DNA from: an uncultured Clostridia bacterium
GTDB lineage: Bacteria; Bacillota; Clostridia; Oscillospirales; Acutalibacteraceae
Length of the DNA: 64,000 bases
Assembly: GCA_947627345.1 (NCBI GenBank)
Contig: CANQVS010000002.1
Coordinates: 62,001-126,000, forward strand
Direction: 5' to 3'
The notes under the pieces are model-generated. The model worked only from the letters and a program-made list of their open reading frames with translations. It did no database searches and was not told the DNA's origin. Below are positions 60,871-63,053 of the stretch, in pieces; within the stretch, counting starts at the first letter, position 1, and the number at the start of each line of letters is the position of its first letter. Made by a program: the position numbers and the translations under genes.

Positions 60871-61731
60871 ATGGATATCGTTATTCTCGATTTGGAGTGG
60901 AATGGCTCCTACAGCAAAAAGGTTCACCACTATGTAAATGAAATAATTGAGTTCGGCGCGGTTAAAGTTGATAACGAGTTAAATATTAAAGATACTTTTT
61001 CAATGCTTGTAAAGCCTGAAATAGGGAAAAAATTAAGCAGTCATATCGCGTCGTTAACACATATTGACAACGATGAGCTTTTTACAAAGGGTGAAAGCTT
61101 TCAAACAGCTACGGACAAATTCACGGAATTTGCAAAAAACAGTATAATCCTCACTTGGGGAACATCAGATATTTTAACGCTTATGGACAATTACAACTAC
61201 TATACAGGCGACAGTGAAATTCCGTTTTTAAAGTATTACTGTAATTTGCAGGAGTACTGCGAATATGCACTCGGCGCTCATAATCCTGCGTCACAGCTCG
61301 GACTTCAGAACTGCGCTGATATGCTAAACATTAAAAGTGATGAACAAGACTTGCACAGAGCCTATACTGACGCAATTTTAAGCCTAAAATGCCTTAAAAT
61401 GGTTTATGATAAAGGAAAGTTCAAGAAGTATGTTTATAAAGCGAATGATGAATTTTATCACAAAGTCACCTTTAAAAATAAGCAGATTACTGATATAAAT
61501 AATCCGCTTGTAGACAGAAGCCAGCTTTACTTCATTTGTGACGACTGCCAGATTCGCGCCGAACAGCTTACCCATTTTAAGGTGAAAAATAAAAATTTCG
61601 TAGCAAAATTCCGTTGTCCTAAATGCAGAAAACAGTTTAACGGAAGAATTTCAATGCGCCTTAAATTTGACGGAATAACAATAAAGAAAAAAACCTTTCT
61701 TAATGAACCTCCCAAGCTCTCCGATGATTAA
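60871..61731 (+). CDS. DEDD-type 3'-5' exonuclease with C-terminal zinc ribbon
   Basis: DIVILDLEWNGSY; LHRAYTDAILSLKCLKMV; FICDDCQIRAEQLTHF ... FRCPKCRKQF. Confidence 0.85.
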   Translation: MDIVILDLEWNGSYSKKVHHYVNEIIEFGAVKVDNELNIKDTFSMLVKPEIGKKLSSHIASLTHIDNDELFTKGESFQTATDKFTEFAKNSIILTWGTSDILTLMDNYNYYTGDSEIPFLKYYCNLQEYCEYALGAHNPASQLGLQNCADMLNIKSDEQDLHRAYTDAILSLKCLKMVYDKGKFKKYVYKANDEFYHKVTFKNKQITDINNPLVDRSQLYFICDDCQIRAEQLTHFKVKNKNFVAKFRCPKCRKQFNGRISMRLKFDGITIKKKTFLNEPPKLSDD

Positions 61732-61969: not shown

Positions 61970-62126
61970 ATATATTTGAATATCTGCGATGAAGATATTG
62001 TAATTTTAAATTTCCAACCTGTTTTTTGCTGTATATTACTGCTTTTTTGCTGTATATTGCTTTAAATTAAATTAAAATTGTTTATGTTGTTAACAAAGTC
62101 CTGATTTTGATACATCACCACAAAAT

Positions 62127-62140
62127 CGAACAAATTTTCT
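62127..62140. promoter_or_regulatory. LexA/DinR-like box 1
   Basis: CGAACAAATTTTCT, similar to the Firmicutes CGAACnnnnGTTCG class. Confidence 0.45.
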
Positions 62141-62148
62141 AAAAAGTA

Positions 62149-62177
62149 TTGTAATCGAACAAATATTCTGCTATAAT
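62149..62177 (+). promoter_or_regulatory. Promoter of the sigma-like operon with LexA-like box 2 embedded
   Basis: TTGTAA, 17-bp spacer containing CGAACAAATATTCT (62156-62169), extended -10 TGcTATAAT. Confidence 0.7.
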
Positions 62178-62253
62178 TTAATTACAAGATTGTTAAGCCC
62201 CGAATAATCTTGCAAATATCAGAGAATAAAAATCATTTTTGAAAGGACTTTAT

Positions 62254-62469
62254 ATGAATTATATCGAATGGGCGCAGGAATATTATAAAGACGCCGAAAG
62301 AGTAATGAAAACTATAAGAAAATATGAGGCGATTTTAAAGAATAAAGGTCATGCAAACGAAGAAAAGCTCAACTCAATTATCGCTTCTTACCGTTATATT
62401 TATTATGATGTTTTAAATACCGCAAAAATGCTTGAATCAAGAGCAAAGGAGAATAAAAATGCGGCATAG
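62254..62469 (+). CDS. Small hypothetical protein, first gene of a two-gene operon
   Basis: MNYIEWAQEYYKDAERVMKTIRKYEAILKNKGHANEEKLNSIIASYRYIYYDVLNTAKMLESRAKENKNAA; preceded by GAAAGGA. Confidence 0.75.
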   Translation: MNYIEWAQEYYKDAERVMKTIRKYEAILKNKGHANEEKLNSIIASYRYIYYDVLNTAKMLESRAKENKNAA

Positions 62470-62752
62470 GAGAATTTCAATAACTGAAAAAAACGAGCAC
62501 AGGTTGGTTTACTTTGACCACGATTACAGAGAAACAAACGAAAACGATATTGCAAAAATGAAAAAAATTCTTAATTATGCTATTGCAAACGAACTTACCG
62601 ACCGCCAGCGCTATTGTATTTGCGAGCATTATTTAAAAGGGAGAAGTATGAAAAATATTGCGTGCGAGTTAAATCTAAATCCCTCAACCGTGACCCGTCA
62701 TATAAAAAGTGCGGAAAAACGTCTTAAAAGAATTGCTGACTGCTATTGCTAA
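62459..62752 (+). CDS. Sigma-70 region 4-like HTH protein
   Basis: LTDRQRYCICEHYLKGRSMKNIACELNLNPSTVTRHIKSAEKRLKRIA; overlaps the upstream ORF by 11 nt; RBS AAGGAG. Confidence 0.85.
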   Translation: MRHRRISITEKNEHRLVYFDHDYRETNENDIAKMKKILNYAIANELTDRQRYCICEHYLKGRSMKNIACELNLNPSTVTRHIKSAEKRLKRIADCYC

Positions 62753-62771: not shown

Positions 62772-62816
62772 AAGTCGGGTGACAAGGTAAATTTTGTCAA
62801 TATGTCACCCGACTTC
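62772..62816 (+). terminator. Intrinsic terminator of the sigma-like operon
   Basis: aagtcgggtgaca ... tgtcacccgactt followed by T-rich sequence. Confidence 0.85.
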
Positions 62817-62846: not shown

Positions 62847-63053
62847 TTAAATCTCAAAATCTTCTTTTTTAAATTTCATCATTTTTGCCTTGCTTTTTGG
62901 AATTCTAAGTGTAGGATTATATTCAAATTTTCTGCACTTGCCTTTTTTTATTTCCTTTTTTTTATCGCATCTAAACTCATTGTTTGATTTATTAAAGTTG
63001 TCGCAGTATTCGCAATTTGTCTCAATGTTATTACCAAAAATTTCCTTATTCAT
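62847..63053 (-). CDS. Small Cys-rich (CxxC...C...C) conserved hypothetical protein
   Basis: NCEYCDNFNKSNNEFRCDKKKEIKKGKCRKFEYNPTLRIPKSKAKMMKFKKEDFEI. Confidence 0.7.
   Translation of the reverse strand: MNKEIFGNNIETNCEYCDNFNKSNNEFRCDKKKEIKKGKCRKFEYNPTLRIPKSKAKMMKFKKEDFEI

Follow-up and report, generated by a model that had tools for sequence, protein, structure and literature searches.

Within the 64,000-nucleotide stretch of an uncultured Clostridia genome analysed here (the window), two short overlapping genes follow a promoter that carries two LexA-like boxes. Which repressor reads these boxes, when would the genes be expressed, and what kind of regulator could they encode? An earlier note on this DNA had read the locus as an SOS-like or self-repressed small regulatory module, perhaps of mobile-element origin. 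Our analysis indicates that DNA damage probably switches on an undescribed two-gene regulator at this position; the original observation is confirmed, with better support than had been claimed for it, and its interpretation is partly supported.

Promoter, LexA boxes and leader of the gene pair

The promoter comprises a -35 hexamer, TTGTAA (62149-62154, plus strand like all elements of the operon), and an extended -10 hexamer, TATAAT preceded by TGc (62172-62177, kept in relatives), separated by a 17-bp spacer. Box 1, CGAACAAATTTTCT, occupies 62127-62140 and is kept in relatives, and box 2, CGAACAAATATTCT, lies 29 bp further on at 62156-62169—that is, inside the -35/-10 spacer, such that operator and promoter overlap. 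Both the spacing and the position of box 2 had been described in the earlier note, and the coordinates check out; in about ten relatives, too, a second box follows the first by 29-30 bp. The predicted mRNA begins with a hairpin (62185-62212) ahead of gene 1 (62254-62469, 71 amino acids) and gene 2 (62459-62752, 97 amino acids), whose 11-nt overlap, also as first reported, suggests coupled synthesis of the two proteins. The "strong terminator" placed at the end of the operon was overstated: an inverted repeat with perfect 13-bp arms (62772-62784 and 62803-62815) is present between convergent genes and is probably a shared terminator, but its loop spans 18 nt, its six-T run lies on the minus strand, and a simple terminator scan did not call the 62772-62815 repeat. 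Because of this minus-strand T run, the repeat better suits the convergent gene at 62847-63053 (minus strand). The latter encodes a 68-aa Cys-containing protein with no Pfam family over the cut-off, and is the convergent neighbour in about 19 relatives.

The boxes match the LexA sites of the home genome. A whole-genome search found the exact motif CGAACAAATNTTCT three times in 1.83 Mb, twice at the pair and once about 100 bp upstream of recA, where the 14-mer is identical to box 1; this rarity argues against a chance occurrence. The looser pattern RAACAAATNTTYK has eight matches: the two at the pair, one at recA, one upstream of lexA and four elsewhere. With half of these eight places falling at recA, lexA and the pair, the pair looks like a main SOS output beside the two master genes. 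The earlier note had proposed a comparison with the genome's own recA and lexA boxes, and these do not differ clearly from those of the pair.

Conservation of the boxes was assessed with a LexA matrix whose training set was limited to sites from the recA and lexA promoters of related genomes, selected for their resemblance to the known Gram-positive box. Of 40 named relatives—which, as one clade of mostly metagenome-assembled genomes, are not mutually independent—38 have a site of at least 12 bits in the 250 bp preceding the pair, as compared with 9 of 800 dinucleotide shuffles (1%) and 0.6% of other segments taken from these loci. A broader sample of 47 loci, for the most part a single one per genus, extends into further families of the order; 24 of them passed the same threshold within 300 bp, and some carry a perfect CGAACAAATGTTCG near the start codon. 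Among individual genomes holding the pair, Ruminococcaceae bacterium P7 (L191) has the box CGAACAAGTGTTTG, and in Anaeromassilibacillus sp. An172 (L188) the box is weak. When palindromic dyads were counted without bias in 49 upstream regions, GAAC-N4-GTTC was recovered in 15 (0.23 expected) and ACAC-N5-GTGT in 14 (0.17 expected); judged from these sequences, the two dyads are the specific operators of the pair. A third palindrome, AGTNC-N8-GNACT, was observed upstream of the LexA box at six loci (L038, L061, L079, L155, L162 and L193), and the form AGT[AC]C-N6-10-G[GT]AC[TA] occurs in 6 of the 49 regions versus 0.06 expected from shuffles; the window copy, at 62097-62114, is an imperfect, decayed version.

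That the boxes are coincidental A/T-rich repeats devoid of LexA function would fit the A/T-rich character of intergenic DNA, but such repeats would hardly be so rare in the genome, identical to the recA box and conserved before the pair, and we deem this explanation extremely improbable. LexA control of the pair, as read from the DNA, is instead well supported, and the proposal of a small operon under SOS control is borne out by the shared recA box, the related lexA box and the conservation in relatives. The locus resembles the Gram-positive LexA/SOS regulon exemplified by C. difficile (PMC4234289): a GAAC-N4-GTTC-type operator lies over a sigma-70 promoter, and in the present genome the same box precedes recA and a related one precedes lexA. 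In excerpts from that account, the core genes of the C. difficile regulon are lexA, recA, ruvCA and uvrBA, and a small sigma-like pair is not listed among them (PMC4234289).

The leader hairpin has a 10-bp stem and the loop AAGCCCCG at 62195-62202. Its folding energy is well below that of shuffled sequences (z = -7.05), with 0 of 200 shuffles folding as well. Across loci L151-L191, the stem letters vary by genome with the pairing kept, and the loop GCCCC is invariant; in eight sequences sharing one register, 90% of cells pair, nine of ten pairs change on both sides, and the covariation score was reached by 0 of 500 shuffles. Arm swaps between 22 genomes attained the native pairing in 0 of 2000 trials. 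Since the stem letters vary and only the pairing is kept, the conserved feature is an RNA-level signal rather than a protein operator. An Rfam search of the region returned no family at the gathering score and chance-level matches only; the hairpin is a possible new cis-regulatory RNA. We also considered it as a mark of a wider regulon and rejected the idea: the home genome holds a single match (E 2.6e-5), and with a strict model, 12 congeneric genomes gave no match at E<=1.

The two proteins and their chromosomal setting

Gene 2 is the more readily classified of the two. It matches PF08281 over the Pfam cut-off (E 2.9e-9), as do 28 of 28 members, in keeping with the sigma-70 region-4-only protein that had been proposed. 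Region 4 is the single sigma-70 part found, TIGR02937 scores below its cut-off, and the combination of regions 2 and 4 is not seen. The AlphaFold2 model adopts a region-4 fold, and a fold search of the PDB retrieved region 4 of ECF factors with a probability of 1.0 and modest E-values; the corresponding PDB sequence search gave weak HTH matches only. The protein belongs neither to the Xpf-like family NF005385 (26.4 bits, cut-off 136) nor to the NCBIfam family YlxM (21.9 bits, cut-off 80), and the HTH part lies marginally over the cut-off of Pfam UPF0122. Region-4-only proteins can also act as repressors. Gene 1 is predicted by AlphaFold2 to be a two-helix hairpin (pLDDT 93.9); it belongs to no family in Pfam, PHROG or NCBIfam, and a PDB search gave no significant relative of its fold. 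Against close relatives, dN/dS ranges from 0.06 to 0.13 for gene 2 and from 0.10 to 0.26 for gene 1, values that place both genes under purifying selection.

The two genes travel together. Among the best 30 gene 2 hits in the bacterial family, one of which was left out for a contig that is too short, gene 1 stands directly upstream of gene 2 in 28 of 29 readable loci, the exception (L051) having a different, probably phage-type gene there. The pair is kept together across many genera and several families of the order, with marginal matches only beyond it; named relatives include Ruminococcus-like, Oscillospiraceae and Anaeromassilibacillus genomes. The gene 2 count of 75 of 150 is an upper bound that includes other region-4 proteins, and no gene 1-gene 2 fusion occurs in the loci checked.

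Related genomes share the neighbourhood aconitase-typA-exonuclease-[pair]-pgeF. The exonuclease (60871-61731), of RNase_T type with C-terminal zinc-ribbon-like cysteines, adjoins the pair in 34 loci. Mobile cargo would show phage or ICE genes around it and a variable location; close relatives instead display core synteny, and our searches found neither phage relatives of gene 1 nor close phage relatives of the pair. On this sequence evidence, the locus is core chromosome and not a mobile element today, and the mobile origin suggested in the earlier note is not supported for the present locus. The deep ancestry may be mobile, given that other genera keep the pair beside an XRE/ImmA module of the prophage or ICE kind. 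Elsewhere in the home genome, a probable prophage with an S24 (LexA-like) repressor lies at about 102000-121000 of contig G000:C3 (L004 and L032), with capsid-type genes at L004.

Exchange of the damage switch and candidate targets

In other genera, the pair faces a divergent operon that encodes an XRE repressor together with an HExxH protease of the IrrE/ImmA type, accompanied by ACAC-N5-GTGT operators, two to four of which flank the promoter in some genera. This layout was seen at L036, L042, L043, L049, L050, L052, L053, L056, L059, L060 and L062. At L059, in a genome without lexA, a small peptide with a SASGGG-type leader is encoded just downstream of the pair (1810-1968) and could be a modified-peptide precursor. 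The XRE/IrrE operon, detected by motifs with perhaps one false positive (L068), is present at 15 of 17 loci with the ACAC operator versus 1 of 30 without it (p ~3e-9). LexA itself was considered as the binder of ACAC-N5-GTGT and rejected, the sites being absent from recA and lexA promoters; as the sites track the divergent operon, the XRE protein is the likelier binder.

The two inputs appear to be exchangeable. Four genomes more than 90% complete in which lexA was not detected (G116, G016, G041 and G093) all have the XRE/IrrE operon with ACAC sites and no LexA box, with the proviso that most genomes are draft metagenome assemblies, where a missing lexA may be an assembly gap (G105, for instance, is 80% complete). 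Over the 47 loci, a LexA box or an XRE/IrrE operon accompanies the pair at 36, both at four and neither at 11. IrrE/DdrO and ImmA/ImmR are described as damage-responsive switches (PMC8072749, PMC10233336). The loci of the other genera resemble these systems in placing an XRE HTH protein and a HExxH protease beside the pair, unlike the window locus, where both are absent and LexA boxes stand instead. Since XRE/IrrE takes the place of LexA and both are damage switches, the pair would stay under damage control even though the repressor differs, and this exchange supports a damage-response role independently of the LexA boxes.

Candidate targets come from one genome, G084, in which ACAC sites also precede a PAP2 phosphatase, a holin/GH25-endolysin cassette, and phage-like genes that include a Mor-type activator; the cassette and the phage-like genes stand as isolated operons in core DNA (L215, 2020-4232; L218, 943-2562). 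Further ACAC pairs of this genome, found close to galE and ldh, either have a repeated 13-mer in common or lack an evident target gene, and could be unrelated repeats. The lysis cassette of G084 is a lead for a target of the pair. As a general target, we rejected it: the holin family occurs in 8 of 33 pair-holding genomes, the window's not among them, and in G051 and G097 it is not accompanied by ACAC sites.

A proposed second tier of the SOS response and its rivals

We consider it likely that the pair is a chromosomal two-gene transcription regulator, repressed by LexA, that adds a second tier to the SOS response. With LexA dimers on both boxes, one of them in the -35/-10 spacer, RNA polymerase would be blocked. 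DNA damage activates RecA, and LexA then cleaves itself; at this promoter, we infer, the same sequence of events would open transcription and yield a two-gene mRNA with the conserved hairpin at its start. Gene 2 could then bind promoter DNA through its sigma region-4-like HTH, with the helical gene 1 protein as a putative partner for dimerization or RNA polymerase contact, and together they may turn on a further set of genes. In other genera, an XRE/IrrE-type damage switch would replace or join the LexA input. Counting against this reading, neither lead yielded a target, the leader hairpin being single in the genome and holin/lysis genes not being found in the window genome and in most of the genomes with the pair; region-4-only proteins may serve as repressors too; and 11 of the 47 loci show neither switch.

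The main mechanistic rivals are a split sigma factor and a self-repressing module. SigO-RsoA of Bacillus subtilis consists of two small genes, one with region 4, and the pair might likewise initiate transcription itself, with gene 2 supplying region 4 and gene 1 the core-binding part. The overlapping genes that stay together, and the combination of a region-4-only protein with a small helical partner, are what such a factor would look like; gene 1, however, is no more than a two-helix hairpin, none of the libraries gave it a region 2 match, the fold matches listed for it include no sigma structure, and nothing was seen that would melt a -10 element, which makes this reading quite improbable. 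We assign a similarly low likelihood to a self-regulating or toxin-antitoxin-like module, in which gene 2 would repress its own promoter, LexA would be one input, and gene 1 would be an effector held in check. Two small genes that overlap, behind a promoter that carries operators and is flanked in some genera by two to four ACAC palindromes, have the right outline, but the boxes match the recA and lexA sites of LexA rather than a private site, the ACAC sites track the divergent XRE/IrrE operon (15/17 vs 1/30), gene 1 has no toxin family match, and the locus gave no positive evidence for the self-repression put forward at the outset.

The pair might also control a phage-tail particle or a domesticated prophage, as a late activator of sigma-like type that has survived the loss of the structural genes or acts on unlinked ones. 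This reading is unlikely, although the divergent XRE and IrrE/ImmA genes of other genera reproduce the layout of PBSX-like and ICE regulators, and the ACAC sites of G084 also lie before the holin-endolysin cassette and phage-like genes. Against it stand the core synteny of the window clade, the lack of close phage relatives, the failure to find the holin family in the window genome or in most of the genomes that hold the pair, and an Xpf-like NF005385 score far below the cut-off.

Known systems place the LexA-repressed regulator in context. Xpf of PBSX, which operates with an XRE protein and the ImmA-like XkdA, is likewise a region-4-like regulator, and in several genera the pair is divergent to XRE and IrrE/ImmA genes; it differs in family score (26.4 vs 136) and in the core chromosomal locus of the window clade, which is free of phage genes. 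The UviA/TcdR group comprises complete small sigma factors with region 2, and includes a damage-inducible sigma-like regulator in Clostridia; damage inducibility (UviA's feature) would be shared, unlike the domain content, gene 2 having region 4 only. SigO-RsoA, alike in its two small genes, differs in that gene 1 lacks region 2 or any sigma fold match. Xpf and the UviA group are the closest working analogies, with the features examined here arguing against membership in either.

To our knowledge, little has been described of the SOS regulons in the Clostridia that abound in the gut. A broader reading, which we hold tentatively and somewhat lean against as a whole, is that gut Clostridia possess, throughout the order, an undescribed module for regulation upon DNA damage. 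It would combine a new helical protein family with a sigma region-4 protein and, in one clade, a structured leader RNA of its own; its damage input would have alternated between LexA and XRE/IrrE while the module itself was retained, and its output would be a second SOS regulon that has so far escaped recognition. Retention of the pair where LexA is lost, under an unrelated damage switch, implies that its output matters, and these losses let regulatory rewiring be tested in a natural setting. Should the pair activate late genes, a hidden damage response would come into view, with a possible link to prophages or to the lysis of cells in the gut.
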